Notes under the pieces: generated by a model
Told to the model about the DNA's origin: nothing
The model's database searches: none
The model's input: the letters and a program-made list of their open reading frames with translations, nothing else
Position numbers and translations under genes: made by a program
Part shown: positions 4,531 to 48,994 of the stretch, piece by piece
How the letters are laid out: each line of letters opens with the position of its first letter
How positions within the stretch are numbered: position 1 is the stretch's first letter
Assembly (NCBI RefSeq): GCF_029892785.1
Contig: NZ_JARXXA010000001.1
Coordinates: 1-64,000, forward strand
Length of the DNA stretch: 64,000 bases
Direction of reading: 5' to 3'
Source of the DNA: Parabacteroides sp. PH5-46
GTDB lineage: Bacteria; Bacteroidota; Bacteroidia; Bacteroidales; Tannerellaceae

Positions 4531-5894
4531 AACAACATAATATTCTAAGCATACTCATTGCACTAACGATTTTATCTTCCTGTAAGATAGGGGAGAAATA
4601 TATCCGTCCGGACCTGCATTTACCGGAGCGTTTGGAGATGTATGCCGATACCTCTTCGGTAGAAGATATTTCCTGGCAGGCATTGTATACGGATACCGTT
4701 ATGCAAAGGCTTATTGTTACGGCATTGGATAACAACAAAGATATGCTCATAGCCTCTGCCCGTATCAAGGAAATGGCGGCTACGAAGCGTATCTCTTTTG
4801 CCAATATGTTTCCTTCTATTGATGCCCGCCTGAATGCACAGAAGGAACGTTTGAATTATGGCGGAGACAATCCGTCTCCCGATCCTGAATTTTCGGCCAA
4901 GGCCGTTTTGTCGTGGGAATTGGATTTATGGGGAAATCTTCGTTGGGCAAATGAGGCGGCTGTTGCTTCTTTCATGCAAACGGTAGAAGCCCGGAAAGCT
5001 TTGCAACTGACCATTGTAGCCGAAGTAGCAGCTGCTTATTATGAGTTGCGGGCCTTGGATAATGAACTAACGATTGTGCGGCAAACACTGGATGCCCGGC
5101 GCGAAGGCGTGCGTTTGGCTAAGCTACGCTTTGAAGGCGGGCTTACTTCCGAAACATCCTACAGGCAGGCGGATATAGAATTTGCCCGTACGGAAACCCT
5201 GGTGCCCGGTCTGGAAGAGGCTATCAAACTGAAAGAAAACGACCTGAGCTTTTTGCTGGGGCAATATGCCGGAGATATACCACGAGGCTTGTCCGTTGGA
5301 GGACAACATTTACCGGAAACCTTGCCGGTAGGCTTACCTTCTTCTTTGCTGGAACGCCGACCGGATATGAGGCAGGCAGAGCAGAAACTTCGCCAGGCCA
5401 ATGCGCGGGTAGGAGTGGCGCAAACAGACCTTTTCCCCAAAATAAGGCTTACCGGAAACCTGGGAGTGGAAAGTGACGAATTGGGAAATCTCTTGAAAAG
5501 TCCGGCCTGGTTCATTGCCGGAGATCTACTCACCCCGCTTTTCGCCATGGGAAAGAACCGGGCCAAACTGAAAGCAGAAAGAACTCGCTATGAACAGGAA
5601 GTGTACACCTATCAAAAAAATGTGCTCGAGGCTTTTAAAGAAGTAAACAATGCCATTGTCAGCCTGCGTAAGGCAAAAGATATACGGGCTTCCCGTGCCC
5701 GCTTGGAGGCTTCTGCCCAAAGCCACGTCCAACTGGCATATTTGCAATATATCAACGGAGTTACCAATTATATCGATGTATTGGATGCGCAACGAAGCCT
5801 ATTGGATGCCCAGTTAAGCCTGAACGACGCCGTACTTAATGAATTACTCTCTGTCGTGTATCTTTACAAAGCCTTGGGCGGAGGCTATCAGTAA
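4527..5894 (+). CDS. RND efflux outer-membrane factor (TolC/NodT family lipoprotein)
   Basis: Outer-membrane channel of the pump. It has a lipoprotein signal (ILSSC, Cys about 19), the NodT-type opening CKIGEKYIRPDLHLPE, and two OEP repeats with long Ala/Leu/Arg-rich helices. The SSLLERRPDMRQAEQKLRQA segment (about 272-291) is a hallmark of the NodT/OprM group. Length 455 aa is normal. The overlapping ATGA junction with the permease supports co-translation. The operon ends here; only a short GAGAC/GTCTC hairpin (5896-5907) without a good T run follows. Confidence 0.95.
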   Translation: MKQHNILSILIALTILSSCKIGEKYIRPDLHLPERLEMYADTSSVEDISWQALYTDTVMQRLIVTALDNNKDMLIASARIKEMAATKRISFANMFPSIDARLNAQKERLNYGGDNPSPDPEFSAKAVLSWELDLWGNLRWANEAAVASFMQTVEARKALQLTIVAEVAAAYYELRALDNELTIVRQTLDARREGVRLAKLRFEGGLTSETSYRQADIEFARTETLVPGLEEAIKLKENDLSFLLGQYAGDIPRGLSVGGQHLPETLPVGLPSSLLERRPDMRQAEQKLRQANARVGVAQTDLFPKIRLTGNLGVESDELGNLLKSPAWFIAGDLLTPLFAMGKNRAKLKAERTRYEQEVYTYQKNVLEAFKEVNNAIVSLRKAKDIRASRARLEASAQSHVQLAYLQYINGVTNYIDVLDAQRSLLDAQLSLNDAVLNELLSVVYLYKALGGGYQ

Positions 5895-6019
5895 TGAGAC
5901 GTGTCTCGCTTAATTTTGCTCGTGTCCTGTATTTATTTGCCCGTGTGCTATTTTGGATAGCTTGTTACCCAAAAAAATATAAAGACAGACTGTTTCTTTC
6001 GTGAAACCTGCTTTTGTTA

Positions 6020-6028
6020 TATCTTTGC
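6020..6028 (+). promoter_or_regulatory. -7 promoter element (TATCTTTGC)
   Basis: Perfect TAnnTTTGC box of the Bacteroidetes primary sigma factor. It ends 6 bases before the ATG at 6034, so the transcript would be nearly leaderless. It also argues against the upstream GTG at 6001 as start. No clear TTG -33 is seen. Confidence 0.65.
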
Positions 6029-6033
6029 AAGCC

Positions 6034-8190
6034 ATGAGGTATACCTTATACATACTGGTCTTTTTGATGACAATTATGATTTCTGTCCCCATTGCAGGAC
6101 AAAGAAATCCTGGAGGTAGTGGAAGAGGAGGCTTTTCCATGTCGAATCTTACTTCTTCTCAAAAAGAAATCCCCGATAGCTTATTGATTCCCGACAGCGC
6201 CGCTTTACAAGGAAAGCGGATCACTGCTTATCGGCTGACTTCCAAGATTGGTGATGCCTATATAGCCCCGATGGATACACATTACCTGAACTTCGGTAAT
6301 TCTACTCTGGTAGAAGCCAAGTCGCTGGGTGTAGGATATCTGGCTAATCTGGGTTCTCCGGCGCAGACCCGTATATTTTCCGAGCGGAAAGAAGCCCGTG
6401 ATTTCATATTTGCCGATGCCTACGACTACTATATCATGACACCGGAGAATGTTAATTATTACGATACCAAACTACCTTATACCAATGTTACGTTTACGCA
6501 GGGAGGCGCCTCTGATAAGCGCGAAGACCAGCTGAAGGGCGTGATGACCTGGAACTTCGGTAAACGGTTTAATATGGGAGGCGAGGCCGATTATATCTAC
6601 AGTCGCGGACAGTATAGAAGTAACGGAAATAGCCTGTTAAGTTATCGGATCTTTGGTAGTTACCGTTCAGACAGATACGAGTTGAATGCCTATCTGAATA
6701 ATTATAATTTTGTGAATTACGAGAATGGAGGTTTGAGTAACGACGAATATATTACCAATGTTGAGCAGTTTGAAACTGGTCGGCAAAAGGTAGATAGAAA
6801 AAGCTATCCGGTACGTTATTATGATACCTGGAATCGTGTGCGTGGCAAGCAGTATTTCCTTACACACCGCTACAATCTGGGCTTTACCAGGGAATTGTCT
6901 CAAACAGATGAAGAAGGCAATCCGATAGAAGTATTCGTGCCTGTTTCCAGCATTATTCATACCTTTGAATATGAGGATAACCGGCGGCGTTTTATCTCTA
7001 AAATAAATATAGACAGCGCTTACGTGAAACCGGATGCAGGCGTTGAAGTATATAATCCCAACCAACGGAAATTAGAGAATGTTTTCGGACTGGATCCTAC
7101 GTTAAACGATCTTACGTCTGCCTGGAATATGAAGAATACCTTCGCGCTTTCACTCCGGGAAGGTTTTCAGGATTGGGCCAAATTCGGGCTTACCGCTTTT
7201 GCTACATTTGAGAAAAGAAAATTCCAATTACCCGCTGCCATAGACGGGCTGACTTATAACCGAACGGAAGGAAGCGGGGTGAATCCCAACCCTTCTACCC
7301 TGGATTTTCCCTTTGTTAAGATATACGATGAGTTTACTACCTATCTGGGGGGAGATTTGTCTAAAAGGCAGGGTTCCGTACTAACCTATAATGCCCGGGG
7401 AGAATTCGCGTTAATCGGCGACGACCTTGGCGAATTCAGGCTCAGTGGGGATTTGCAGACCAATTTCAAACTATTAGGCAAGGAGGCTTCCTTTAAGGCG
7501 AATGGATACATAAGGAACGTTACACCGGCCTTTTACCAGCGATATAATCACTCCAGGTTTTATTGGTGGGATCCTGACCAGCCGGAGAATAAAACAGCCA
7601 AGCTGAGTAAAGTTAAGCAGTTTTATGCCGGAGGCGACATACATCTGGCATCTACAGGGACTACCTTGTCTGCCGGTTTTGAAAGCATACAAAACTATGT
7701 GTATTTCGGCCTGGATGGCTATCCGTACCAACACGGAAGTAATTTGCAGGTTATTACCGCCCGCTTGAAACAAGACTTCAAGTTTCGCGCATTTGGTTGG
7801 GAAACAGAGGCGGCATACCAGTTCAGCAGTGATCAGAATGTGATTCCGCTTCCCGACCTTACGGTGTCGTCTAATATGTATGTACAGTTTAAATTGGCCA
7901 AGGTGCTGTCGGTACAGTTCGGGGCGGATGTTCATTATAATACCAAGTATTATGCTCCGTATTACGAACCGGCTACTCAGCAGTTTCAGCTGCAAGACAC
8001 TAAGAAGATAGGCAATTATCCTTTGCTGAACGGCTATGTGAATTTCCACCTGAAACAGGCTCGATTCTTCATTATGGGATATAATTTAGGCTCAATGTTT
8101 ATCGATAAGCCCGAATCCTTCTCCCTGCTGCATTACCCGATGAATCCCATGGTGTTAAAGATGGGAATTTCCGTAGTCTTCAATAATTAG
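6034..8190 (+). CDS. putative porin (Bacteroidetes Porin_10-like outer-membrane beta-barrel)
   Basis: Predicted outer-membrane beta-barrel protein of about 718 aa. The ATG at 6034 was chosen over the GTG at 6001 because it gives a clean signal peptide (MRYTLYILVFLMTIMISVPIAGQ) and because a -7 promoter box ends just before it. A Gly/Ser/Arg linker follows, then alternating aromatic-rich strands (for example GGEADYIYSRGQYRSNGN and FYWWDPDQPENK), and the chain ends in a beta-strand (LKMGISVVFNN) as barrels do. This resembles the 'putative porin' family of Bacteroidetes; function is inferred from fold. The next gene starts 1 bp after its stop, so they probably share a transcript. Confidence 0.8.
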   Translation: MRYTLYILVFLMTIMISVPIAGQRNPGGSGRGGFSMSNLTSSQKEIPDSLLIPDSAALQGKRITAYRLTSKIGDAYIAPMDTHYLNFGNSTLVEAKSLGVGYLANLGSPAQTRIFSERKEARDFIFADAYDYYIMTPENVNYYDTKLPYTNVTFTQGGASDKREDQLKGVMTWNFGKRFNMGGEADYIYSRGQYRSNGNSLLSYRIFGSYRSDRYELNAYLNNYNFVNYENGGLSNDEYITNVEQFETGRQKVDRKSYPVRYYDTWNRVRGKQYFLTHRYNLGFTRELSQTDEEGNPIEVFVPVSSIIHTFEYEDNRRRFISKINIDSAYVKPDAGVEVYNPNQRKLENVFGLDPTLNDLTSAWNMKNTFALSLREGFQDWAKFGLTAFATFEKRKFQLPAAIDGLTYNRTEGSGVNPNPSTLDFPFVKIYDEFTTYLGGDLSKRQGSVLTYNARGEFALIGDDLGEFRLSGDLQTNFKLLGKEASFKANGYIRNVTPAFYQRYNHSRFYWWDPDQPENKTAKLSKVKQFYAGGDIHLASTGTTLSAGFESIQNYVYFGLDGYPYQHGSNLQVITARLKQDFKFRAFGWETEAAYQFSSDQNVIPLPDLTVSSNMYVQFKLAKVLSVQFGADVHYNTKYYAPYYEPATQQFQLQDTKKIGNYPLLNGYVNFHLKQARFFIMGYNLGSMFIDKPESFSLLHYPMNPMVLKMGISVVFNN

Positions 8191-8191
8191 T

Positions 8192-9031
8192 ATGATGATG
8201 AAGTCGCGTAAATTGCTCACGGTTTATCTGTTTCTGTTATTCCTGGCAGTTGCAACGATGTTTGTGATATGGTTTGGGAAAAACTACCGGAAACCCATTC
8301 TCCCTCGCGATTATGCGGAAATAGAAGAAGAAGGAATCCTGCGCATCATAACAGAATATAGTCCTTCAGGCTATTATATTTCCGGAGATACGATTGAAGG
8401 ATTTCAGTATGAACTGAGCCAGGCGATTGCCCGTGTATCGGGACTGGAAGTACAGACGCTCCTGGAAACAGGATTGCCCAAAAGTTTTGAAGCCCTAAAC
8501 AAAAATACCTGTGATATTATTGCCCGCAATATCCCGGTAACATCAGAAACGAAAGAAAACTATTTGTTTACGGAACCAATCGTGATGAACAGGCAAGTGC
8601 TCCTCCAACGGACGGCAGAGGCTAACAACGGAATTGCACCGATTCGTAGCCAACTGGATCTGGCAAACAAAGAAATTTATGTACCCCAGAATTCTCCGGC
8701 TCTGCTGCGTTTGCAGCACTTGGAGCATGAGATAGGGGATTCTCTTTATATAGTGGAAGATCCTGCTTATTCGTCTGAGCAATTAGCTATGATGGTGGCG
8801 AAAGGAGACATCGATTATGCCGTATGCGATTTGCAGGACGCTACCATTTTTCAAAGAGAACTGCCGGAAATAGATATACAAACGGATATTAGTTTTACCC
8901 AATTGCAAGCCTGGGCTGTACGGAAAAATTCGCCTGTATTGGCCGATAGTCTGAACAGTTGGCTTAGGAAGATAAAAGAGGAAGGTTCGTTTGATAAAAT
9001 ATATAAACGCTATTATAGCAGCCAACGCTAA
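8192..9031 (+). CDS. membrane-anchored periplasmic substrate-binding-like protein (SBP_bac_3)
   Basis: An N-terminal hydrophobic segment (about 9-29) is followed by a type-3 solute-binding fold: GILRIITEYSPSGYYISGD, IEGFQYELSQAIAR, CDIIARNIPVTSETKENYLFTEP and a C-terminal EEGSFDKIYKRYY. These are standard landmarks of amino-acid-binding proteins and of the N-terminal domain of lytic transglycosylase MltF. No transglycosylase domain follows and no ABC transporter genes are adjacent, so it may be an MltF-like sensor or regulatory domain rather than a transporter part. It starts 1 bp after the porin gene. Confidence 0.78.
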   Translation: MMMKSRKLLTVYLFLLFLAVATMFVIWFGKNYRKPILPRDYAEIEEEGILRIITEYSPSGYYISGDTIEGFQYELSQAIARVSGLEVQTLLETGLPKSFEALNKNTCDIIARNIPVTSETKENYLFTEPIVMNRQVLLQRTAEANNGIAPIRSQLDLANKEIYVPQNSPALLRLQHLEHEIGDSLYIVEDPAYSSEQLAMMVAKGDIDYAVCDLQDATIFQRELPEIDIQTDISFTQLQAWAVRKNSPVLADSLNSWLRKIKEEGSFDKIYKRYYSSQR

Positions 9032-9079
9032 TTTATTCGTGGGAATTGCTTACTTTTACACGCATTTTAATGATAAATA

Positions 9080-10351
9080 ATGAGATTTGATGAACTAAAT
9101 CTGGAAGATGCCGTTCTTGATGGGCTCGACGCCATGAATTTTCAGGAAACAACACCTATCCAGGAATTAACAATACCTATCATTTTAGAAGGGAAGGATG
9201 TGATAGCCTGTGCCCAAACCGGTACGGGAAAGACTGCCGCTTATGTATTACCCTTGATTAATGAACTGAGTAAGGGAGGTTTCCCTGTAGATGCTGTCAA
9301 TGCTGTGATTATGGCACCGACACGTGAACTGGCCCAGCAGATTGACCAGCAAATTGAAGGTTTCTCGTATTTTGTGCCTGTTTCGGCTGTAGCCGTTTAC
9401 GGCGGAACCGACGGGGTTACATGGGAACAGCAAAGAAAAGGACTTGAAGCCGGAGCCGATATTGTAATCGCTACTCCCGGACGTTTATTATCCCATATCA
9501 AACTGGGAACCGTAGACCTGTCTCGTGTTTCTTATTTTGTGCTGGATGAAGCAGACCGCATGCTCGACATGGGCTTTTACGAGGATATCACACAAGTGTA
9601 TAAACAAATGCCCGCTTCGTGCCAGATCATTATGTTTTCGGCAACTATGCCTCCCAAGATCCGTACCCTGGCAAAAACGATATTAAAAGACCCCGAGGAA
9701 GTTAAAGTAGCCATATCCCGTCCGCCTGACACGATTATGCAAACGGCATATATCTGCTATGATACGCAGAAGCTGAGTATCCTGGAAGATCTGTTCAGGC
9801 AAAATCGTCCGCAGCGTGTGATCATATTTTCTTCGTCCAAAGTAAAGGTAAAGGAACTGGCCGCTACGCTTAAACGAATGGACTTTAATGTAGCCGCTAT
9901 GCACTCGGACCTGGAACAATCGCAGCGCGAAGAAGTGATGCGTGAGTTTAAAAACGGGCGGATAGATGTTTTGGTGGCAACAGATGTGGTTTCTAGAGGA
10001 ATTGACATCAATGATATAAAACTGGTCGTTAACTTCGATATTCCCCATGATCCCGAAGATTATGTGCATCGTATCGGACGAACTGCCAGAGGGACAGACG
10101 GGAAAGGGCTTGCCATTACGTTTGTCTCTATAGAAGAGCAGGCGCAATTTCAACGGATAGAAACGTTTTTGGATAAAACGATCTATAAGATACCGATTGA
10201 TCCCAAATTTGGAGAGACACCCTTGTATGAACCCGGCAAATATGCCCGGAATAAACGGGGATTCTCGCGCAAAGGAGGAAAGCCTTCCGGAAATAGAACG
10301 AATAAGTCCTCGAAAAATACACAGAGTAGAGGTCGTTTTTCGAAACGCTGA
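9080..10351 (+). CDS. DEAD-box ATP-dependent RNA helicase
   Basis: RNA unwinding or remodelling enzyme. All core motifs are present: Q motif (FQETTPIQELTIP), Walker A AQTGTGKT, PTRELAQQ, TPGR, DEAD, SAT, and in domain 2 VATDVVSRGIDI and HRIGRTAR. The C-terminus is a short basic tail rich in Lys/Arg/Gly/Ser (from about 385), typical of RhlE-like proteins. A TACTTTTA box near 9051 is a plausible -7 element with a short leader. Cold-response or ribosome-assembly roles are common in the family but cannot be assigned here. Confidence 0.95.
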   Translation: MRFDELNLEDAVLDGLDAMNFQETTPIQELTIPIILEGKDVIACAQTGTGKTAAYVLPLINELSKGGFPVDAVNAVIMAPTRELAQQIDQQIEGFSYFVPVSAVAVYGGTDGVTWEQQRKGLEAGADIVIATPGRLLSHIKLGTVDLSRVSYFVLDEADRMLDMGFYEDITQVYKQMPASCQIIMFSATMPPKIRTLAKTILKDPEEVKVAISRPPDTIMQTAYICYDTQKLSILEDLFRQNRPQRVIIFSSSKVKVKELAATLKRMDFNVAAMHSDLEQSQREEVMREFKNGRIDVLVATDVVSRGIDINDIKLVVNFDIPHDPEDYVHRIGRTARGTDGKGLAITFVSIEEQAQFQRIETFLDKTIYKIPIDPKFGETPLYEPGKYARNKRGFSRKGGKPSGNRTNKSSKNTQSRGRFSKR

Positions 10352-10373
10352 CTAATAACTAAAAGAAATCAAC

Positions 10374-10381
10374 TATTTTTG
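10374..10381 (+). promoter_or_regulatory. -7 promoter element (TATTTTTG)
   Basis: TAnnTTTG box ending 9 bases before the ATG at 10391; a near-leaderless start like the one at 6034. It overlaps the TTG at 10379, which is therefore unlikely to be the true start codon. Confidence 0.55.
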
Positions 10382-10390
10382 TATATTGCT

Positions 10391-12490
10391 ATGAAGAAAA
10401 GTAATATTCTTATTGTTTTGTTTATAAATACATTTGTTATGTTGCAAGCACAGAATCCACTATTAAGTGAGTATAGTAATACCCCGTATGCTACGCCTCC
10501 CTTTGATAAAATAAAGGTTGAGCATTATGAACCGGCCTTTGCAGAAGCGATTACGCAGTTGGAAAAAGAGGTTGAATATATAACCAATAACCCGGAATCC
10601 CCGACGTTTGAGAATACCATTGTAGCCCTTGAACGCAGCGGTATCCTGTTGTACCGGGTAAACTCCGCCTTCTTTAATGTATTGAATGCGGAAGCCAATG
10701 ACGAGATGATGGAGATTTCCCAGCGTATCTCTCCCAAGCTTTCGGAAAGCTCGAACAATATATATCTGAATGAAAACCTGTTCAAGCGTGTAAAAGCCGT
10801 ATATGAAAATAGGGCGAAACTAAACCTGAACACCGAAAATGCCAGGTTACTAAGCGAAACCTACGATTCCTTTATTGTACAAGGCGCAGACCTGAATGAA
10901 AAGGACAAAGAAACATACCGCAAACTAAGTACCGATCTGGCGATACTATCTTTGCAGTTTGAGCAAAATTCCCTGAAAGATAAGAACCGTTTCGAATGGC
11001 TTATAACAGACGAAACCCAGCTTTCCGGACTACCTGGAAGTATTCGTGATGCAGCCAGAACCTTAGCCAAAGATAAAGGCAAAGACGGCTGGTTATTCAA
11101 TCTTTCTGCCCCTAGTTACACCGCCTTTTTGCGCTATGCCGATTCACGCGAACTACGCGAAAAGATGTATTGCGAATACATGAGTGTAGCAAACAAAGGT
11201 GACGAATTCGATAATAAAGGTATTATCAAACAGATTGTTAACAAGCGATTGGAACTGGCCCGCCTATTAGGATACAATACCTATGCCGATTATGCATTGA
11301 AACATACAATGGCGAAAACGCCGGCTAATGTATATAATTTGTTGAACCAGTTGCTGGACGCTTATAAGCCAGCGGCCATTAAAGAATATAATGAAATTCT
11401 GGCTTTCGCTAAAGAAGAAGGCTTGAACGATACGGCTGTTATGCCCTGGGATTGGAGTTATTATGCCGAAAAGCTGAAAGATAAACGCTTTCAGGTTAAC
11501 GACGAAATGACACGTCCTTACTTTGAACTGGAGAATGTAAAGAAAGGCGTATTCGGACTTGCCACTCAGTTATATGGCATTACATTCAGAAAAAATACAG
11601 AGATACCTGTGTACCACAAGGAAGTGGAAACGTATGAAATATACGATGCCAACGGAGAATTCCTGGCCATCCTTTATACGGACTTCCACCCGCGCGACGG
11701 AAAGCAGTCCGGTGCCTGGATGAATACGATAAAGCCTCAGTTTAAAGGCATAGAGGGCGATCAGGGGAATCCGCAGATCATTATTGTAATGAACTTTACC
11801 CGTCCCACAGAGACAGAGCCTTCTCGCCTAACCTATGACGAGGTAAATACCTTGCTCCATGAGTTTGGACATGCTTTACACGGTATCTTAGCCGATGGCA
11901 CCTATGCTCTGCTGACCGGAACCAGCGTATATCGTGATTTCGTAGAGCTCCCTTCACAAATAATGGAGAACTGGCTGACAGAGAAAGAATACCTGGATCA
12001 AATAGCCGTACATTATCAAATCGGAGAGAAGATCCCGCAGGAAATGGTACAAAACCTGATCGACGCGTCTAACTTCAATGCCGGATATGCTTGTTGCCGC
12101 CAGCTAAGTTTCGGCTTGTTGGATATGGCTTGGCACACAATGACAAAGCCTTTTGAAGGCAATGTAGAAGACTTTGAAAACAAGGCCTGGAAGCCGGCTG
12201 CTATTCTGCCGACAGTTCCTGGTGCGCTGATGAGTTCTGCTTTCGGACATATCTTCTCCGGAGGTTATGCAGCCGGATATTATGGGTATAAGTGGGCGGA
12301 AGTATTGGATGCCGATGCCTTTTCCATGTTTAAGGAAGCCGGTATCTTTAATAAGGAAGTGGCTCGCTCATTCCGCGAGAATATCCTTTCCAAAGGAGGA
12401 ACCGAAGATCCGGACATCCTATATAAACGCTTCCGGGGAAGAGAGCCGTCTATTGACGCCTTGCTGATACGGAACGGAATTAAAAAATAA
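10391..12490 (+). CDS. dcp: M3 family metallopeptidase, peptidyl-dipeptidase Dcp-like
   Basis: Zinc peptidase that removes C-terminal dipeptides from oligopeptides. The HEFGH zinc motif with downstream Glu is seen (TLLHEFGHALHGILA, about 492-506), as is the family segment EMTRPYFELENVKKGVFGLA. The start is placed at ATG 10391, which gives a signal peptide (MKKSNILIVLFINTFVMLQAQ) and fits the promoter; the protein is about 699 aa, normal for Dcp. A secreted or periplasmic location is inferred from the signal. It ends 71 bp before the dCMP deaminase gene, which has its own promoter-like box. Confidence 0.92.
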   Translation: MKKSNILIVLFINTFVMLQAQNPLLSEYSNTPYATPPFDKIKVEHYEPAFAEAITQLEKEVEYITNNPESPTFENTIVALERSGILLYRVNSAFFNVLNAEANDEMMEISQRISPKLSESSNNIYLNENLFKRVKAVYENRAKLNLNTENARLLSETYDSFIVQGADLNEKDKETYRKLSTDLAILSLQFEQNSLKDKNRFEWLITDETQLSGLPGSIRDAARTLAKDKGKDGWLFNLSAPSYTAFLRYADSRELREKMYCEYMSVANKGDEFDNKGIIKQIVNKRLELARLLGYNTYADYALKHTMAKTPANVYNLLNQLLDAYKPAAIKEYNEILAFAKEEGLNDTAVMPWDWSYYAEKLKDKRFQVNDEMTRPYFELENVKKGVFGLATQLYGITFRKNTEIPVYHKEVETYEIYDANGEFLAILYTDFHPRDGKQSGAWMNTIKPQFKGIEGDQGNPQIIIVMNFTRPTETEPSRLTYDEVNTLLHEFGHALHGILADGTYALLTGTSVYRDFVELPSQIMENWLTEKEYLDQIAVHYQIGEKIPQEMVQNLIDASNFNAGYACCRQLSFGLLDMAWHTMTKPFEGNVEDFENKAWKPAAILPTVPGALMSSAFGHIFSGGYAAGYYGYKWAEVLDADAFSMFKEAGIFNKEVARSFRENILSKGGTEDPDILYKRFRGREPSIDALLIRNGIKK

Positions 12491-12532
12491 GGCAAACAGG
12501 CATTAATTAATTCAAATATAATTACTTTTGTT

Positions 12533-12540
12533 GCTTGATT
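12533..12540 (+). promoter_or_regulatory. -7 promoter element (TACTTTTG)
   Basis: TAnnTTTG box 21 bases before the ATG at 12562, in an AT-rich gap after the Dcp gene. A purine-rich AAGAGGAGGG stretch lies between box and start. It probably drives the dCMP deaminase / S41 protease / cyclo-ligase operon. Confidence 0.55.
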
Positions 12541-12561
12541 ATTAAGAGGAGGGATTGATTA

Positions 12562-13011
12562 ATGGATGAAAAGGCGAGCAAACAAGGCGAACTGGACAAA
12601 CGCTATTTGCGGATGGCTATGATCTGGGCTGAGAATTCGTATTGCAAACGTCGTCAGGTAGGGGCGATCATTGTGAAAGATAATATGATTATTTCTGACG
12701 GATATAATGGTACCCCTTCCGGTTTTGAGAATGTATGTGAAGATGAAAACAATGTGACAAAACCCTATGTCTTACATGCGGAGGCAAATGCCATAACAAA
12801 GGTAGCAGCCTCGTCCAACAGCAGTAAAGATGCGACGATCTATGTAACTTCGGCACCTTGCATTGAATGTGCGAAATTAATCATACAATCCGGAATAAAA
12901 CGAGTGGTTTACTCGGAGAAATATCGTGTGGAAGATGGGTGTGACCTCCTGGAACGCGCAGGTATTGAGTTGGACTATCTAGAGATAAAAGAAGAAAGGA
13001 CGAACAAATAA
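12562..13011 (+). CDS. dCMP deaminase family protein (ComEB-like)
   Basis: Zinc-dependent deoxycytidylate deaminase fold, converting dCMP to dUMP for dTMP synthesis. The zinc and catalytic motifs are clear: HAEANAI (His and proton-shuttle Glu, about 74-80) and SAPCIECAK (two Cys, about 94-102). Length 149 aa is usual. It is the first gene of a three-gene operon, 1 bp from the S41 protease. The same three-gene neighbourhood is common in Bacteroidales as far as I know. Confidence 0.92.
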   Translation: MDEKASKQGELDKRYLRMAMIWAENSYCKRRQVGAIIVKDNMIISDGYNGTPSGFENVCEDENNVTKPYVLHAEANAITKVAASSNSSKDATIYVTSAPCIECAKLIIQSGIKRVVYSEKYRVEDGCDLLERAGIELDYLEIKEERTNK

Positions 13012-13012
13012 G

Positions 13013-14737
13013 ATGAACAATAAAAAACTATATGTATGGCTTCCGGTAATCATTGCTTTTAGTATTGCTCTGGGTATTTTTATCGGCAATTATTACCTGA
13101 ATATAAGCTCTCAGAATAAAGGAATGCGCCGTTATGCCACCGGGAATAAGGTTAATTACATCCTCGATATCATTAACGAGCAATACGTGGATACCGTAGA
13201 GGTGGGTCAGCTAGTGGAAGGGGTAATACCTAAAATATTCAGTGAATTGGATCCGCATTCCGTGTATATTCCGGCAGAAGATGCAGAAAGTGTAAACGAA
13301 GAGTTGGAAGGATCATTCAGCGGTATAGGTGTTTCCTTTAATATGCAGACAGATACCATTTTGGTTATTAGTGTTATACCCGGAGGCCCTTCAGAGAAGG
13401 CAGGGCTTCAGCCTTTCGACCGCATCATCACTATTAATGATTCCGTGTTCTCGGGAAAGCATGTAGATCAGAACTATGTAATGAAGAACCTTCGCGGAGC
13501 AAAGAACAGTACCGTTACTCTGGGGGTGAAACGGAGGGATATGCCCGAACTTATCTACTTTGACGTAACCCGTGGCGATGTTCCGGTGTACTCTGTGGAT
13601 GTATCCTATGAAGTAAAGAAAAACATCGGCTATATCAAGATCTCTAAATTTGCCCGTACCACTTACAACGAATTTATTACGGCGATTGCCAAGCTAAAGC
13701 AAGAAGGCTGTAATTCATTTGTGGTTGACCTTCGCGGCAATTCAGGAGGTATGATGGATGCTGCCATAAATATGATCAACGAATTTCTTCCGGCTGGGCA
13801 ACTTATTGTCTATACGGAAGGGAAGGCTTATCCCCGGAATGATATATTTTCGAATGGAACGGGTACTTGCATCGATAATCCGCTAGTTGTACTGACAGAC
13901 GAAGGCTCAGCTTCAGCCAGTGAGATCTTTGCCGGAGCCATTCAGGACAATGACAGGGGGATGATTATCGGCCGGAGAACATACGGGAAAGGATTGGTGC
14001 AATCTCAGATAGCGCTGACGGATGGTTCCCAGCTACGGCTTACCATTGCCCGCTATTATACGCCGTCTGGCCGCTCCATCCAGAAAGAATATCAGATGGG
14101 GAAAACGGAAGACTATGATATGGATATCTACAACCGCTTTTTGCATGGTGAGTTTTATTCTGCCGATAGCATCAAGATAGACAATCTACCGGAGTTTACG
14201 ACTTCTATCGGACGTACCGTTTACGGCGGCGGAGGCATTATGCCCGACATCTTTATTCCGAGCGATACCAGTGGTGTAACTTCCTATTTCAACAATATCG
14301 TGCGGAGTACGAATGTGCTTTATCTGTTTACTCTGCTGTATTCGGACGAGAATTACAATAAACTATCTTCCTTTGATAATTACGAGGAATTGTACAGCTA
14401 CTTAAAGCAGCAACCCTTGCTGGCTGAGTTTACGGACTTTGCGGCAGCAAGAGGGGTAAAGAAACGTCCTGCCCTGATCAATATTTCAGCCAAACTGATC
14501 GAAACGCATATACATGCGTACATCGTTCGTAATTTCTTTGAAGATAGCGGCTTCTATCCGATCTTTTATAAAGATGATGAAACGATCAAGCAGGCTGTTA
14601 AAGTCATAGAAGAAGGGAAATCGCTTCCCACATTAGATGATAAGATGTCTGAACATGGAATTACAGCAAGCAAAAAAACTCCTGCGGCAATCTTTAGCCT
14701 CTACAAAGAAAGAATACACGGAAACTACGTTGCTTGA
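13013..14737 (+). CDS. S41 family C-terminal processing protease with PDZ domain
   Basis: Tail-specific serine protease of the CtpA/Prc group, acting in the periplasm. An N-terminal signal anchor (WLPVIIAFSIALGIFIGNYY) is followed by a PDZ domain (about 95-175; GIGVSFNMQTDTILVISVIP) and the S41 core with the nucleophile region GSASASEIFAGAIQD and the general-base lysine in RRTYGKGLVQ. A C-terminal region of about 150 aa follows, as in Bacteroidetes homologues. Its last 83 bp overlap the next gene in another frame. Confidence 0.93.
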   Translation: MNNKKLYVWLPVIIAFSIALGIFIGNYYLNISSQNKGMRRYATGNKVNYILDIINEQYVDTVEVGQLVEGVIPKIFSELDPHSVYIPAEDAESVNEELEGSFSGIGVSFNMQTDTILVISVIPGGPSEKAGLQPFDRIITINDSVFSGKHVDQNYVMKNLRGAKNSTVTLGVKRRDMPELIYFDVTRGDVPVYSVDVSYEVKKNIGYIKISKFARTTYNEFITAIAKLKQEGCNSFVVDLRGNSGGMMDAAINMINEFLPAGQLIVYTEGKAYPRNDIFSNGTGTCIDNPLVVLTDEGSASASEIFAGAIQDNDRGMIIGRRTYGKGLVQSQIALTDGSQLRLTIARYYTPSGRSIQKEYQMGKTEDYDMDIYNRFLHGEFYSADSIKIDNLPEFTTSIGRTVYGGGGIMPDIFIPSDTSGVTSYFNNIVRSTNVLYLFTLLYSDENYNKLSSFDNYEELYSYLKQQPLLAEFTDFAAARGVKKRPALINISAKLIETHIHAYIVRNFFEDSGFYPIFYKDDETIKQAVKVIEEGKSLPTLDDKMSEHGITASKKTPAAIFSLYKERIHGNYVA

Positions 14738-22422: not shown

Positions 22423-22468
22423 TAAAATCCAAAAGAAGCGAAAAAGTTTTTGTTTCTTTTGGGTTTTA
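22423..22468. promoter_or_regulatory. 15-bp inverted repeat overlapping the island promoter
   Basis: TAAAATCCAAAAGAA (22423-22437) is complementary to 22454-22468 with a single G-T mismatch and a 16-base loop. The right arm contains the TTTG used as -33 element for the nuclease-STAND gene. It could be a terminator shielding the switch from upstream transcription (a T-rich tract follows) or an operator. The rest of the 22202-22515 gap is AT-rich without a recognisable gene. Confidence 0.6.
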
Positions 22469-22487
22469 TATTTATTTTTTACCTTTG
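22458..22487 (+). promoter_or_regulatory. fixed promoter facing the invertible segment (TTTG-N18-TACCTTTG)
   Basis: TTTG (22458-22461) and TACCTTTG (22480-22487) are separated by 18 bases, matching sigma-ABfr promoters. The -7 box ends 9 bases before the left inverted repeat and 28 bases before the ATG at 22516. It lies outside the invertible segment, so it would drive whichever gene is brought to the left end. Confidence 0.7.
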
Positions 22488-22496
22488 ACGAACAAC

Positions 22497-22520
22497 TGAT
22501 AACTATTTATTATAGATGAA
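22497..22520 (+). repeat. left 24-bp inverted repeat of the nuclease/glycosyltransferase switch
   Basis: The 24 bases 22497-22520, including GATAACTATTTATTATAG and the start codon ATGAA, recur exactly in inverted orientation at 27586-27609. A short dyad CTAT-N5-ATAG at the centre is like a tyrosine recombinase core site. The nuclease-STAND start codon lies inside the repeat. Confidence 0.92.
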
Positions 22521-25500
22521 TCACTTAACTACTGATTATTGGGCAGAATTCAAATCTGATGGCTTACTGTTCGAAGATTTAGTACATGATCTATTAGAAT
22601 TAAAGTATCCCGGAATCGAGTTCTACGCAACGAAAAAATCATGGGACGGGAGTCGCGATTTTGAGGCTACTATAAATCTGTTGGAAGAAGCCAAAGCAAA
22701 AATATGGTTGGAGTGTAAGTATCATCAAAATGACCGATTGCCAGTCCATGATGTTTCAATGACATTATTAATGGCATTTATTCATGATGCGAAACAGATT
22801 ATCATCTTTTCATATTCTCCCATAAACAGAACTTTCGAAAAGCATATTGCCGACTATGTGGAAAGGACAAAGACTAAGGTGGATATTTATCATGACTTAA
22901 CATTGGAGGAGCTAATACTTACATATTCTTCATCAATGAAGAATTTTAATAAGTACTTCCCTACATTTAAAAAAGAAGTTGACATCTTACAACATCATTC
23001 AGATATTCAATATGAATACAGAATCGAAAAAAAAGAGTCCGATCGGAAGAAAATTGTAATAGGCATAAATCAACCCTTCGAATTAAATCTATATATATAC
23101 AACCATCATTCAAAAGAAAGAAATATAGAAGTTTCAATAATTGATAATGTTAAAGATTATTTTCACATCAAAAGTAGAGACCTTTTATTTCCCGAATATA
23201 AAATACTCAAAAATATACCCCCAAACAGTAGCAGTGTTATCAGACTAAAAATGCGAGTGAAATCTTATTCTGAAAAGATAAAATTTCCCCGAGTATCCAT
23301 AAAAGAAGAAGATGGTCGACAAACAATCTGCAAAATCGACCAAAAACTTGAATGTCGTTGGATTGCCACAACACCATTAATCGGTGATTCGTATTATGAA
23401 ATATTGAATAACTGTGGCCAGTATATCGGGAATACACATAACTTCTCTGTAATAACAATAACAGGCACAAGCGGAGTCGGGAAAAGCAGAATACTTAAAG
23501 AATTGAATCTTTACAGTCAGGACATCAATAATAAAGTATGTTACATAGATGCTGACGAGAAAGATATCACCGCTAAGCTTTTTGTGGAGAAATTAATTTC
23601 AACTCTAGAAGATTTACCTTTATTTGATAATAAACAAACCAATTTGTGTTTTTCATCCAATATCGAAGACAATAAATATTATGCATGCAGAATATTGTAT
23701 GACAAAAGTTTTAATGTAGCAAAAGAGAAAGAAAATGTTGTAAAATATCTATCTGATCTATTGTGTCGGAAATCATGTAGCATTATTCTGGATAACTTGC
23801 AAGCCTATGACGAATTGAGTATTGAGATAATAGATTTATTACTTAAATACATGGATGAAAGAACTTCCGTATCATCTCTAATTTTAAGTTTCAATTTAGA
23901 TTATCTCTATTCAGACACCGATACGCATAATTTATACAAGCGTCTACTCTATTTATCCTCTAAAGAGGTGCATAGTTACTACCATACCCAAATAGAAGGA
24001 TTTACGAGAAAAGAGGCCATCCAATATTTACAGGAAAGTCTTATAAAAGTATATGATGAGCATCGGGAAGTCGATACGATTACTTATCAAAGATCTATTG
24101 AAAAAATTGTAGACACCTGCGGCACAAATCCGTTTTTCCTGCATGAGTTCATATTATATCTTTTACAACAAGGCGTAATACGTCACACAGACACTACCAG
24201 TTATTATATACACGACATAGACAGATTCCAAATATGTTTAAATACTACCCCTGTCTCCATCAATGATTTAATAGGCAAACGAGAACAGTTATTCCTCGAA
24301 AGCATTAAAGATTCTCTTACTCTCACAAAATCATATGAGGACCTTATATCGGTAATTGCCCTTACAAAATCGTTGCCTCTGATTGTATTTAATGATCTAA
24401 TTGGTGATAACAATCTGCTTAGGCAGCTCGAACGGATTGGGTTTATCAATATCGGCATGGATGATCATATTCGGTTTTCGCACCAATTCTTTGAGAAATA
24501 TTTTATATCAAGGCATTCATTGTTATCCAAGCCAGAAGAATTCCGCAGGAAACTCTTAAAATCATTTGATCAATATGGCTATACGTATGAATTCTTCTTC
24601 TCTTTGTTCTTGGTGAAGAAATCATTGAACCAGTTAAACCAAAATGATTTCGACGCTGCATTAGAAAAAATAATGCAACGGGATGTGGAATTTAATTATA
24701 GTTTGGAGATCTTTAATATTATAAGTGATTATCTGGATTTATCCATAGAATCGATATCTCCAAAAACCTATATTAAAGTATATTGGCAGATCGAATCTAT
24801 GACCGTAAAGCGTCATGGAATGACAAAGTGCCTGATTTATAACGAAAAAGTATTTAACCAGTTTATCTGTAATTATCCAAAATTCGCAGAACATTTGGCT
24901 AATGTTTTTAAGTTACTGGAAGAATATATTTGTCACTTGCTGAACCTTCAGGAATTTGATGAGAGTTTAAAGAAAAATAAGCAGTTGACAGATCTGCTTG
25001 AAAATGAAATGCTTGACCATGTTGGTTGTGAAGAGATTTTAATAAACATGTATATCAGACAAACAATGGTTTATTATCACCTCCAATTAATAGAAGATGC
25101 CGAGTTTACTAATTCTAAAGCAATGAACTTAGCTCAAAATATTGGCGACAGAGAAGGCATTTTGAAATGCTGGAAGTCTAAAGGAGATATTTATTATCAT
25201 AATTATGATGCAGATTTATACGCTGATAAAATTATAGATGCTTGGTCAATGGCATACAAAAAATATTGTGAATATAGTGAACATACTATTCGATTCAGCC
25301 TAAAATTAGCAATTGCACTTAAAGCTATACGTGTTAACATCTTGAATAATGATTTAGCTGCTGTAGAACCAAAAATAGAATTTGTTTCAAGTTGTATCGA
25401 TAAAACCAATATGGTATTTTATGAGATAATCATTCGCTTGGTTAAAGCCATGTTTCTAATCATTAAATATGACAAATATTTATCATACGAAAATAGTGTA

Positions 25501-25923
25501 TATAACGAGGTTATAAAATTAGTGAACCAAGCTACCGATCTATGTGCAATTTACGGTAATAAAAATATATATATAAACTGTTTCCATCTTCGTGCAATAG
25601 CGCAGTTTAAAGCCTCCAAATGGGATTTTTCATTTGATAATTTTATCAAAACACTATCAATCATAGTTGATAAGACAGAATGGAATGTACTTGAAAAAAA
25701 ATGGAGCGGATTCATCACCGATCTAATGATTTTTGAAAGAAAGCTCAATAAAAAAATACCAGAATCAATTGAGAGTAAACTATTTGTTAATGAACAAATC
25801 AAAGAAAATATCCTAAAGATAAGAACACTTAGCAATGAAAAATTTGAAGATTTTTTTGATAACTATGTAACAAAATCTCTTTTCAAAGATAAGGAGAAAA
25901 AAATAGGATTTCCGAATATTTAG
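22516..25923 (+). CDS. PD-(D/E)XK nuclease / STAND-like P-loop NTPase fusion, candidate antiviral protein
   Basis: A 1135-aa multidomain protein. (1) Residues about 10-150 are an Mrr-like PD-(D/E)XK endonuclease: FEDLVHDLLELKYPG, then WDGSRDFEA (Asp48) and WLECKYH (Glu66, Lys68). (2) About 170-290 look like an Ig-like beta-sandwich. (3) About 300-600 form a STAND/AAA-type NTPase: Walker A TGTSGVGKS (about 316-324), Walker B SIILDN (about 422), and the STAND-typical CGTNPFFLHEF near 536. (4) About 600-1135 are helical repeats of TPR type. Nuclease-STAND-repeat architecture matches Avs-like antiviral sensors, but I cannot place it in a named family. The start codon lies inside a recombination repeat and the gene is AT-rich. 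Antiviral function is inference. Confidence 0.82.
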   Translation: MNHLTTDYWAEFKSDGLLFEDLVHDLLELKYPGIEFYATKKSWDGSRDFEATINLLEEAKAKIWLECKYHQNDRLPVHDVSMTLLMAFIHDAKQIIIFSYSPINRTFEKHIADYVERTKTKVDIYHDLTLEELILTYSSSMKNFNKYFPTFKKEVDILQHHSDIQYEYRIEKKESDRKKIVIGINQPFELNLYIYNHHSKERNIEVSIIDNVKDYFHIKSRDLLFPEYKILKNIPPNSSSVIRLKMRVKSYSEKIKFPRVSIKEEDGRQTICKIDQKLECRWIATTPLIGDSYYEILNNCGQYIGNTHNFSVITITGTSGVGKSRILKELNLYSQDINNKVCYIDADEKDITAKLFVEKLISTLEDLPLFDNKQTNLCFSSNIEDNKYYACRILYDKSFNVAKEKENVVKYLSDLLCRKSCSIILDNLQAYDELSIEIIDLLLKYMDERTSVSSLILSFNLDYLYSDTDTHNLYKRLLYLSSKEVHSYYHTQIEGFTRKEAIQYLQESLIKVYDEHREVDTITYQRSIEKIVDTCGTNPFFLHEFILYLLQQGVIRHTDTTSYYIHDIDRFQICLNTTPVSINDLIGKREQLFLESIKDSLTLTKSYEDLISVIALTKSLPLIVFNDLIGDNNLLRQLERIGFINIGMDDHIRFSHQFFEKYFISRHSLLSKPEEFRRKLLKSFDQYGYTYEFFFSLFLVKKSLNQLNQNDFDAALEKIMQRDVEFNYSLEIFNIISDYLDLSIESISPKTYIKVYWQIESMTVKRHGMTKCLIYNEKVFNQFICNYPKFAEHLANVFKLLEEYICHLLNLQEFDESLKKNKQLTDLLENEMLDHVGCEEILINMYIRQTMVYYHLQLIEDAEFTNSKAMNLAQNIGDREGILKCWKSKGDIYYHNYDADLYADKIIDAWSMAYKKYCEYSEHTIRFSLKLAIALKAIRVNILNNDLAAVEPKIEFVSSCIDKTNMVFYEIIIRLVKAMFLIIKYDKYLSYENSVYNEVIKLVNQATDLCAIYGNKNIYINCFHLRAIAQFKASKWDFSFDNFIKTLSIIVDKTEWNVLEKKWSGFITDLMIFERKLNKKIPESIESKLFVNEQIKENILKIRTLSNEKFEDFFDNYVTKSLFKDKEKKIGFPNI

Positions 25924-25925
25924 CA

Positions 25926-27590
25926 TTAGTATGCTATCATTGAGATATTACCTGTCAGGTCAATAAGAATATCTTTATCGTGATTTCTTTTTTCGAATTC
26001 TTCATAAAAAGCCGTGCCTTTATGTGTTTCCGAATCTTCGACTAAAAAGATCAATGGCAATTTAAAATTTTTAATCTCATTCAGTAAATGCTCACGAATA
26101 TTTTTCTGTTTATACAAATAGACCCTATAATGGCCAACTATAAAGATACCCACTTCCCTTTCAAGTAAAGATATTACAGATTGGGCTCCTGAATCATTTA
26201 CAAGATCAATGAAACAATAAGAATGACCAAAGATCTTATTTTCTTCAGTGAAAGCTGCCAATGCTTCCATGTCGGGTAATTGAGGAATAGAGTTCACCAT
26301 TTGTGTAATACCTAAAGTTTTGGACAATACCTTTAGCTTAGTTTCTTCTTCAACGAATATAAAGTCCATAATATCCATCGAATTATAATGAAGGCGAAAC
26401 TGTGGTCTGAAAAGACTTATATTAAATTCATTTCCCCAATCTATTCTTATCTTATTTCCCGATCGGCATATATATACATTTTGGCTGATCCTTAGTGCTT
26501 CCTGAAGAACCCCACAAGCTATTACCTGAGGATAAACAAAAATATTATCGGATATAAAAGCATTAGTGAACGTTTGACTTTTAAAACCTAATTTTAACCC
26601 GATAAAGTAGACGGTTTCTTCCTCTGTTTCATCCAGATAGTAACTTATGTTACCCTTTGGATATTCGGCTGATATGGTATTTATATATATGCTGTTTTTA
26701 CAAGGTTCAATGTCAATCGGATTCAATGATATCAATCTCATTCTGCCGATCATCATAAAAACATTTTCAAAAAGATTAGGTGAGGCTTTATATTGGGCAA
26801 GTACCTCAAATTCCCAAACCTTATACTTTTCCAGCATCATGCAGATATTGGAATAATTGTCAAATTCGCAGGAGATAAGATCTCGTTTATGTGGAATATG
26901 AAGCCCTCTGAAATAAGGAAGGAATCCGATCGCTCCTTGTTGTGATATCCTATAGCCAAAATCGACATCTTCAGCTCCCCACTTCTCAAAGTTTTCATCA
27001 AATCCTTTCACAGTCTCAAAACACTTCTTTTCGACAGAACAGAATGCTGTAAAATAATGCAACCAAAAGAAATTACGATTTTTATCCTCTTTAAAAAAAG
27101 AACTTCGTTTGTCCTGAAACAGTGGATTCTCAAATATTTGTTTTCGACCTTCATAATCTTCGATTTCATTTACATAAGCAGTAATACCAGAATACAATGC
27201 TAATGGATATTCCGAAAATCTTGATGCATGTGTTGATCCTATAAATGCTATCTCACTACGATTCATGTGTGCCCTTCTCAATTCTTCCAGAGCATATCTA
27301 TCAAGTATCATATCTCCATCTATGAAGAGTAGAATCTGTTTGTTAGCCTTGTACCCGCCGATATTCCTATTATAAGATCTGTTACCCTTTTTGTCAGCAT
27401 GTATAAGTTCAATATTGTTTCTTCTTTGATACTTCTCTAACTTCTGAATAATATCGCTTGATGAGTGGTCATCAACAATTATAAGTTCATCCGTTTCACT
27501 CATTTGATCATAAACAGTATCAATACACAAGGTTATATATGGATTGTTTGAACTGATTATAATAACACTAATATCCCATTGATTTTTCAT
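25926..27590 (-). CDS. GT2-type glycosyltransferase with long C-terminal extension
   Basis: A GT-A fold glycosyltransferase opens the 554-aa protein: ISVIIISSNNP, IIVDDHSSSD, RNIGGYKANKQILLFIDGD (DGD metal site at 91-93) and GFDENFEKWGAEDVDFGYR (acceptor-side motif, about 197-214). The remaining 330 residues are unrecognised, with no predicted membrane span. No other sugar-pathway genes adjoin it, unlike a capsule locus. It is convergent with the nuclease-STAND gene (2-bp gap) and its start codon lies in the right inverted repeat. In this orientation it has no promoter of its own, only possible read-through from the recombinase gene 16 bp upstream. Donor, acceptor and role are unknown. Confidence 0.82.
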   Translation of the reverse strand: MKNQWDISVIIISSNNPYITLCIDTVYDQMSETDELIIVDDHSSSDIIQKLEKYQRRNNIELIHADKKGNRSYNRNIGGYKANKQILLFIDGDMILDRYALEELRRAHMNRSEIAFIGSTHASRFSEYPLALYSGITAYVNEIEDYEGRKQIFENPLFQDKRSSFFKEDKNRNFFWLHYFTAFCSVEKKCFETVKGFDENFEKWGAEDVDFGYRISQQGAIGFLPYFRGLHIPHKRDLISCEFDNYSNICMMLEKYKVWEFEVLAQYKASPNLFENVFMMIGRMRLISLNPIDIEPCKNSIYINTISAEYPKGNISYYLDETEEETVYFIGLKLGFKSQTFTNAFISDNIFVYPQVIACGVLQEALRISQNVYICRSGNKIRIDWGNEFNISLFRPQFRLHYNSMDIMDFIFVEEETKLKVLSKTLGITQMVNSIPQLPDMEALAAFTEENKIFGHSYCFIDLVNDSGAQSVISLLEREVGIFIVGHYRVYLYKQKNIREHLLNEIKNFKLPLIFLVEDSETHKGTAFYEEFEKRNHDKDILIDLTGNISMIAY

Positions 27591-27609
27591 CTATAATAAA
27601 TAGTTATCA
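27586..27609 (-). repeat. right 24-bp inverted repeat of the switch
   Basis: Exact reverse complement of 22497-22520, covering the glycosyltransferase leader and its start codon and reaching the last codons of the recombinase gene. Four more bases (GAAC) further out also match after three mismatches. Confidence 0.92.
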
Positions 27610-43261: not shown

Positions 43262-43325
43262 AACACGCAGTACGCAGTACGGAAAAAGTGATATCCCGTT
43301 CTGCGTTCTGCGTGTTCCGTTCTAC
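43262..43325. repeat. inverted heptamer-repeat hairpin
   Basis: The left arm is built of 7-mers CAGTACG-CAGTACG-GAA; the right arm, read in reverse complement, of AGAACG, GAACACG, CAGAACG and CAGAACG. Together they form an imperfect hairpin between the convergent esterase and oxidoreductase genes. A related copy lies at 44942-45016. A short CTCAACGAG/TTTTTA hairpin follows at about 43328-43350. Confidence 0.75.
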
Positions 43326-44941: not shown

Positions 44942-45016
44942 CAGAACGGAACACGCAGAACGCAGCACGGAAGGCTGAAGACTCATCCCGTTCTGCGTGT
45001 TCCGTTCTACGTTCTG
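44942..45016. repeat. inverted heptamer-repeat hairpin, second copy
   Basis: Left arm 7-mers CAGAACG-GAACACG-CAGAACG-CAGCACG; right arm in reverse complement CAGAACG-TAGAACG-GAACACG-CAGAACG, separated by a spacer of about 20 bases. Adjoins the stop codon of the second Gfo/Idh gene, downstream of it, so it may act as its transcription terminator. Confidence 0.8.
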
Positions 45017-47581: not shown

Positions 47582-47629
47582 GTTAGCGTCTTCGACGCAA
47601 ATACATTACCTCTTTAAAGCAAATTCAAA
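47582..47629 (+). repeat. left direct repeat (attL-like)
   Basis: The 48 bases 47582-47629 match 58830-58877 with a single mismatch (37 identical bases first, then one change, then 10). The core holds a palindrome GCGTCTTCGACGC. Weaker similarity continues upstream with small gaps (from about 47549). The integrase gene starts 99 bases downstream. Confidence 0.88.
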
Positions 47630-48697: not shown

Positions 48698-48704
48698 AAA
48701 ACTC

Positions 48705-48894
48705 CATCTCTTTGACAGAGATAGAGAAAACTATGTATTATTAAAGATAATACAACACAAAGTAAGTGTTTTTTTTATGAGAAATCAAAATAAATTACAA
48801 AATATTATTTCCATATATAAAATATAGAAACCTAATCCTTGTTTAATTCGTTGTGTTATAGAATATTTATTTCTCTATCTCTGTCAAAGAGATG
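48705..48894. repeat. 190-bp segment bounded by 25-bp perfect inverted repeats (predicted invertible promoter region)
   Basis: Bases 48705-48729 are repeated exactly in inverted orientation at 48870-48894; the core is the dyad ATCTCTTTGACAGAGAT. The 140-bp interior is very AT-rich without a gene. The best -7-like box inside is TATCTTTA on the minus strand (about 48743-48750), pointing away from the WG gene in the present orientation. Segment size, adjacent recombinase and position ahead of a surface lipoprotein operon match phase-variable promoters of Bacteroides. Promoter strength cannot be judged. Confidence 0.85.
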
Positions 48895-48994
48895 AGGAAG
48901 AATTGCGATAAAATAGTATATCATAACACTCTTGATATTTTGTTGAATATTTTTTTATTAAAATGAACATTGCTTAATTAATTATAAACTTATC

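Follow-up and report, generated by a model that had tools for sequence, protein, structure and literature searches.

A locus of Parabacteroides sp. PH5-46, located within the first 64,000 nucleotides of contig NZ_JARXXA010000001.1 (hereafter, the window), very probably belongs to a mobile family of invertons that swap whole genes. In this locus, inverted repeats flank a segment with two convergent genes, encoding a nuclease-STAND protein and a glycosyltransferase, and the segment adjoins an intact tyrosine recombinase gene. At the family level, the switch is well supported: the architecture is recurrent, both orientations are represented among the relatives, and an inversion was observed between two strains, in line with the original prediction for this locus of an inversion switch that exchanges two genes behind one promoter. 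We infer that the window recombinase acts, that the window locus flips, and the expression states of the two genes. The locus comprises the following features:

22423..22468, + strand: long imperfect hairpin with a T-rich tail, just upstream of the promoter; possible terminator or insulator
22458..22487, + strand: putative outer promoter (TTTG, N18, TACCTTTG), with boxes that recur at the outer sites of relatives
22497..22520, + strand: left (outer) inverted repeat, core ATAACTATTTATTAT at 22499-22513; contains the ATG of the nuclease-STAND gene
22516..25923, + strand: 1135-residue protein with an Mrr-like nuclease, a STAND-type NTPase and a C-terminal region; currently behind the outer promoter
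25926..27590, - strand: 554-residue protein with a GT2-type glycosyltransferase in the first ~220 residues, the remainder without a family; currently beside the recombinase
27586..27609, - strand: right (inner) inverted repeat, core at 27593-27607; contains the glycosyltransferase ATG and the recombinase stop codon
27607..28587, - strand: 326-residue XerC/D-like tyrosine recombinase, presumed invertase

The two copies of the 24-bp repeat match without mismatch, and the repeat reaches 31 nt at 90% identity when the flanks are counted. It is the longest of the perfect inverted repeats in the window with arms 200 bp to 20 kb apart, and no perfect inverted repeat of at least 18 bp within 20 kb was found in 30 mononucleotide shuffles of the window. 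At up to three mismatches, the repeat has only these two matches in the window (mean in shuffles, 0.00), and near-identical 23-mers (up to three mismatches) in the 4.42-Mb genome are confined to the same two positions. Both start codons lie inside the repeats, at 22516 and at 27590 (minus strand), and the genes converge at 25923/25926, where their ends are 2 bases apart. The predicted promoter consists of TTTG (22458-22461) and, after N18, TACCTTTG (22480-22487), which we take to be Bacteroides-type -33/-7 boxes, and ends 9 bases before the left repeat. All these elements were seen as the original prediction described them, and the layout, with one predicted promoter outside the segment and two genes reading inwards, is of the slp type (see below). 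A complete tyrosine recombinase gene is also present at the right repeat, as claimed, but it does not begin there: this minus-strand gene ends at the repeat, and the right copy opens with its TGA (27609-27607). The glycosyltransferase gene starts 16 nt past this stop codon on the same strand, so that recombinase transcription can run into it in an operon-like manner.

Key residues of the recombinase, nuclease, NTPase and glycosyltransferase are all retained in the window proteins. The 1135-residue protein is an AAA/STAND-type NTPase by Pfam (AAA_22, 1.5e-05; ATPase_2, 8.7e-05), with all matches under the curated cut-offs. It has no Pfam match to Mrr, but its counterparts in L063 (Mrr_cat, 4.6e-08) and L061 do. 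The alignment of the window, L063 and L064 proteins contains invariant D44, D48, E66 and K68, Walker A residues G317..G322 K323, and D426 N427, that is, the PD-(D/E)xK-like residues and Walker motifs of an Mrr-type nuclease fused to a STAND NTPase. The 554-residue protein is of GT2 type by Pfam (2e-15), with a conserved GT-A acidic motif and a C-terminal half without a family; its closest solved chains are those of chondroitin synthase (6.5e-09). AlphaFold2 models of the glycosyltransferase (mean pLDDT 34, 3-row alignment) and the STAND protein (32.8, 2 rows) were uninformative. Identification of the recombinase as a housekeeping XerD or XerC was rejected, with scores below the curated cut-offs (244.2 vs 329.6 bits and 242.4 vs 335.15, respectively), as was that as an integron integrase (123.5 bits vs a cut-off of 265). 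A scan of genome contigs with the window STAND protein detected no relative, and megablast of the window locus against plasmids gave no match.

Relatives of the window recombinase were sought in genomes sampled at one per species, in overlapping sets (genus, family, order and class); further loci came from genome contigs (13 named loci), three Aliarcobacter plasmids, three faecal records labelled bacteriophage, and viral contigs, from which 80 loci were kept of 206 relatives. An identical inverted pair of the core site ATAA-N7-TTAT is present at the recombinase in 23 of the 38 relative loci, and 22 of these 23 segments hold convergent genes, the exception being L025. Such identical pairs were found in 0 of 9 long-flank loci of more distant recombinases, in 0 of 77 further viral relatives (~24-33% identity), and in none of 100 mononucleotide shuffles of the 38 loci; the control stretches were long-flanked, and L027, a 41% relative, was placed in the family and not among the controls. 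Because L019 and L020 are near copies, the independent count is below 23, and L163 and L164 share flanks. The 23 invertons have perfect arms of 16-27 bp and twelve different cores; arm identity was a search requirement and hence no independent evidence, and in a listing made without it the first loci show paired arms, with one additional non-matching site in L022.

We take the core sites to resemble Xer dif sites. The core overlaps the recombinase stop codon in the window, L019-L023 and L026, lies 4-31 nt behind it in L046, L048, L061, L062, L064, L066, L067, L083 and L162-L164, and is located around the recombinase start, or up to 180 nt before it, in L018, L025, L039, L084 and L165. The partner site is inverted and 1.6-5.6 kb from the recombinase-side site. 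L019 contains two invertons by one recombinase, with spacers CTTATTA and CTATAAA and a SIR2-like gene between them (4126-13569); L018 has an upstream CTTAATA pair and a lone downstream CTATTTA site at the contig end. From the mechanism of tyrosine recombinases, invertons near one recombinase with different 7-bp spacers should not recombine with each other. A site-pattern scan of viral contigs yielded no match, and a search for the missing halves of G714 and G691, whose contigs end at a site, found only the one site each with a pattern requiring GG before the site. The end of L065 and the start of L068 are contig breaks exactly at a site, as might arise if an assembly holds both orientations. 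The longest open frame in the L025 segment has 107 codons, and the adjoining recombinase is intact.

In the Bacteroidota loci (L020 left out), 8 of 17 outer sites have TANNTTTG in the 20 nt that adjoin them on the outside, compared with 0 of 22 inner sites; shuffled outer flanks gave a mean of 0.33 and a maximum of 3 in 2000. The box is on the outer side also in L048, where the glycosyltransferase gene is outer, as a fixed outer promoter predicts, and it is absent from the 213 bp upstream of the window recombinase.

Inversion in nature was seen between two plasmids of Aliarcobacter cryaerophilus, pM830MA (NZ_MK715471.1) and pACRY43158 (NZ_CP032824.1), which encode one and the same recombinase record (WP_105918336.1). 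Their left flanks are identical (985/985) and their right flanks 99.87% identical, and the 17-bp repeats enclose a segment that matches at 99.9% identity on the opposite strand. In the alignment of the first 6.2 kb, inverting the segment raises the agreement from 4762 of 6432 positions to 6195 of 6203. This is the one inversion between two strains that was seen, and it places both orientations of a family member in nature; the annotation of pM830MA divides the STAND-like gene between two frames. The A. faecis plasmid pAFAEC shares flanks with the A. cryaerophilus plasmids (97.8% and 90.7%) up to the same sites but carries a GNAT/methyltransferase pair where its relatives carry an ATP-grasp/STAND-like pair, which amounts to an exchange of cassettes at the sites. 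Three further plasmids with the DUF4172 flank encode no tyrosine recombinase within the annotated stretch.

Homologous pairs also occur in opposite orientations at different loci. The STAND gene of the nuclease-STAND/GT4 pair is outer in L061 and inner in L048 (41%, 54% and 50% identity), and that of the STAND-like/YbaK/ATP-grasp set is outer in L046 and inner in L162 (31%, 53% and 52%). Likewise, GNAT is outer in L067 and inner in L163 (36% and 41%), and GT4 of the GT4/membrane protein pair is outer in L019u and inner in L023 (71% and 67%). The original prediction had named homologous loci all fixed in one orientation, with divergent repeats, as part of the outcome that would speak against a switch; the relatives do not show this pattern.

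The invertons carry unrelated genes, and most of the pairs appear to set a defence-like protein against an enzyme:

nuclease-STAND and GT2: window, L022, L063 (with an APH-type kinase), L064
nuclease-STAND and GT4: L048, L061
STAND-like and ATP-grasp: L039u, L046, L084, L162, L164/L166
TPR protein and ATP-grasp-like: L018u, L019d (the latter with GT2 too)
membrane protein and GT4: L019u, L023
membrane protein and methyltransferase: L021, L083
pentapeptide protein and ATP-grasp plus another gene: L026
pentapeptide protein and aminotransferase: L062
345-residue protein and UbiA-type prenyltransferase: L066
GNAT and methyltransferase: L067 (with a SET protein), L163
SIR2-STALD and TIR: L165 (convergent, 5535-7692, faecal record labelled bacteriophage)

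The nuclease label is based on Pfam in L061, L063 and L022 (the last below its cut-off); for the window, L064 and L048 proteins, it comes from alignment. The STAND-type Pfam matches are mostly below curated cut-offs. Partners of the TPR proteins are called ATP-grasp-like from weak similarity to L046 (E 2.5e-04 to 0.001), and the membrane label is our own reading of the sequences. The viral contigs L083 (9935-11538; methyltransferase and a 252-residue protein) and L084 (1953-5472; STAND-like and ATP-grasp) carry invertons; the L083 pair shares 78-82% identity with the L021 pair, and tblastn of the L083 methyltransferase in phages gave no match.

We propose that a dedicated XerC/D-like tyrosine recombinase would recombine two inverted ATAA/7-bp spacer/TTAT sites located around convergent genes or short operons. 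A fixed promoter would lie beyond the segment end distal to the recombinase, with the site supplying most of the leader and, in the window, also the ATG. Inversion would exchange the gene read from the outer promoter, and the other gene, box-less beside the recombinase, would be weakly expressed or silent; from this arrangement, either/or expression of the paired genes is likely. In the window, the nuclease-STAND gene would be in the ON position and the glycosyltransferase gene in the low or OFF position, and inversion would reverse this. Judging by the domain architecture, the nuclease-STAND state is probably an immune state, and the enzyme state may change a cell component; a surface-glycan role for the window glycosyltransferase is a guess.

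Several observations weigh against this scheme. Fifteen of the 38 relative loci lack an identical site pair: in L038, L065, L068, L069, L082, L185, L029 and L030, the stretch stops with, or close to, the match to the recombinase; the L186 record is 5.3 kb long; sites are single or genes decayed in L037, L040 and L041; one lone site accompanies the recombinase of L027, and L049 has no site; and the partner site of L063 has one core mismatch (counting this near match gives 24 loci). L025, from the type strain of Phocaeicola massiliensis (7110-8880), has perfect 26-bp repeats with no intact gene inside. The exact box is missing from 9 of the 17 outer flanks (that of L018u is cut by the contig end) and had been noticed in some of them before the count was made. 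The inner gene of downstream invertons is close behind the recombinase gene and may be co-transcribed with it. The window locus itself is known in one orientation, from the assembly alone, and PADLOC 2.0.0 yielded no convincing model for the window proteins, the STAND protein matching only mad8 (13.2 bits, E 0.011) and the other two matching none. Finally, the defence-like gene (STAND, TPR, pentapeptide, membrane or 345-residue protein, a labelling that is partly our own) is outer in 17 of the 21 scored invertons (window, L018u, L019d, L021, L022, L023, L026, L039u, L046, L061, L062, L063, L064, L066, L083, L084 and L164) and inner in L019u, L048, L162 and L166; L067, L163, L165, L025, the cut downstream inverton of L018, and L020 were left unscored. 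This bias implies that flipping is rare or that one state is favoured.

The same bias, along with the single sites or decayed genes in L025, L040 and L041, would fit repeats that mark an old cassette insertion around a segment that no longer flips, but the strain-level inversion in A. cryaerophilus, the perfect arms of the 23 invertons and the intact window recombinase make such a static relic very unlikely. A somewhat unlikely alternative, put forward in the original prediction, is a choice between two anti-phage states, intracellular nuclease immunity and an altered surface glycan that blocks adsorption. The nuclease-STAND architecture and the GT-A motif in the window agree with this explanation, as does the phage-related phase variation of capsules described in Bacteroidales (in the part of PMC12118408 considered here). 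However, many relatives have an enzyme of a kind that does not suggest surface glycans (ATP-grasp, aminotransferase, prenyltransferase, methyltransferase or tRNA-editing-like), and the two window neighbours scanned by Pfam, a DUF6078 protein and a 293-residue protein without a Pfam family, are not polysaccharide genes.

Each pair could also constitute one two-component immune system, an effector and an enzyme that makes or masks its trigger, with inversion setting their ratio or switching the system off; we regard this as a serious possibility, if somewhat short of an even one. The partners follow strict rules in the complete pairs: nuclease-STAND proteins are paired with a glycosyltransferase in 6 of 6 cases, involving two glycosyltransferase families, and nuclease-free STAND-like proteins with a D-Ala-D-Ala-ligase-like ATP-grasp in 5 of 5, with the single-site loci L040 (an orphan nuclease-STAND-like fragment) and L037 (a GT4-kinase gene) falling outside the rules. 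A search of 395 Bacteroidia genomes found window-type STAND proteins in three, that of the window among them, each beside the recombinase, with GT2, in an inverton (the site pair of L063 being a near match). In L165, the convergent SIR2-STALD and TIR proteins (PF18185, 1.6e-39; PF13289, 2.3e-23; PF13676, 2.2e-12), which we take to be the two parts of Thoeris, argue for a single system behind at least some of the pairs; among 10 partner proteins, PADLOC was clear only for this TIR protein (ThsB model) and for the SIR2 protein beside the L019 inverton. By contrast, boxes on the outer side only mean that strong joint expression is not built in, and GNAT/methyltransferase-type pairs have no obvious effector. 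Nor is there a plain STAND and ATP-grasp operon among the 395 genomes: the ATP-grasp relatives outside invertons, in two genomes, have no STAND or recombinase neighbour, one of them lying at a contig end.

The distribution of the recombinase is patchy. Relatives were detected in 10 of 18 genomes of the genus at E 1e-40, but 8 of these 10 are only 32-35% identical and fall outside the family of invertons, and in 7 of 123 genomes of the taxonomic family (1e-70), 6 of 393 of the order (1e-75) and 10 of 395 of the class (1e-80); they were also found in 3 of 101 genomes of the family of G427, a Dysgonomonas carrier, and in 3 of 12 of family f156. In the recombinase tree, the window groups closely with L018, L019, L021 and L022; the outgroup row (out_L012) is wrong and long, and this close grouping alone is taken from the tree. 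A block of ~16 kb that includes both invertons is 99.99% identical between two Dysgonomonas species (L019 and L020), which, together with the patchy distribution, suggests horizontal transfer.

The window contains other repeats. A second, classical-looking inverton (47729-48994) consists of a tyrosine recombinase gene (47729-48697, Phage_int_SAM_5) and, after it, a perfect inverted repeat of 25 bp (48705-48729 / 48870-48894). The repeat encloses 140 bp that lie shortly before a gene for a WG-repeat protein (48995-50620) and have the look of an invertible promoter. Two copies of a perfect 37-nt direct repeat, 11 kb apart, lie ahead of the second recombinase gene (47582-47618) and of a prolyl-tRNA synthetase gene (58830-58866). 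A 23-nt inverted and a 22-nt direct repeat (43301-43323, 44943-44965 and 44989-45010) are located around one of two adjacent Gfo/Idh/MocA oxidoreductase genes.

Surface antigens, promoters and specificity domains are the main known targets of phase variation by inversion. Thoeris, both components of which are also present in the L165 inverton, combines a SIR2 effector with a TIR signal-maker encoded by co-directional genes, and is not known to involve a recombinase or inversion. Inversions that swap two whole genes are already known. The slpA/slpB inversion of Lactobacillus acidophilus (Boot 1996, by its title in PMC6015585) resembles the window locus in having two genes on a ~6-kb segment, inversion of which interchanges the active and silent genes; however, both encode S-layer proteins, whereas the proteins of the present locus are unrelated, its sites are short and dif-like, and its recombinase gene ends in the site. 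The MBA/UU376 system of Ureaplasma, as far as described in the relevant part of PMC3047005, likewise involves two-gene phase variation by inversion at inverted repeats, but of surface antigens, with no mention of a neighbouring recombinase in that part. The invertible promoters and shufflons of Bacteroidales, in the portions of PMC10939037 and PMC12118408 that concern them, are short-repeat inversions with recombinase genes nearby in the same order of bacteria; there, what flips is a promoter or part of a gene, whereas the present segments would bring entire convergent genes past a fixed promoter. The E. coli PinQ/e14 inversion, according to excerpts of PMC12529663, is similarly recombinase-driven and tied to phage resistance, but involves a serine recombinase and a chimeric receptor-blocking protein, with no defence/enzyme pair. 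NTP-dependent conflict systems (PMC7159879, in part) include STAND-type NTPases, as here, and glycosyltransferase domains as effectors in immune-like systems; no recombinase switch is mentioned in that text, and the word 'invert' is absent from its main text. Among the titles and abstract openings listed in our literature search, none describes the family or the defence/enzyme gene pair, and the original prediction likewise knew of no described switch that combines this gene pair, although a prior description is possible.

A bolder and, in our estimate, unlikely idea is that the invertons are 'split immunity' switches, with an effector and its triggering or masking enzyme on one invertible cassette of which the cell strongly expresses only one. 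If true, this would avoid self-harm and split a clonal population between cells with the effector and cells with the enzyme, and whole pairs would be traded between species at the recombinase sites, so that one system both flips and exchanges its cargo. The family raises the question of why a cell would need to choose between the two paired proteins. A recombinase gene next to paired ATAA-N7-TTAT sites could serve as a search rule for new defence pairs, and a cross-phylum family that alternates complete immune-like proteins with biosynthetic enzymes would join phase variation to phage defence.

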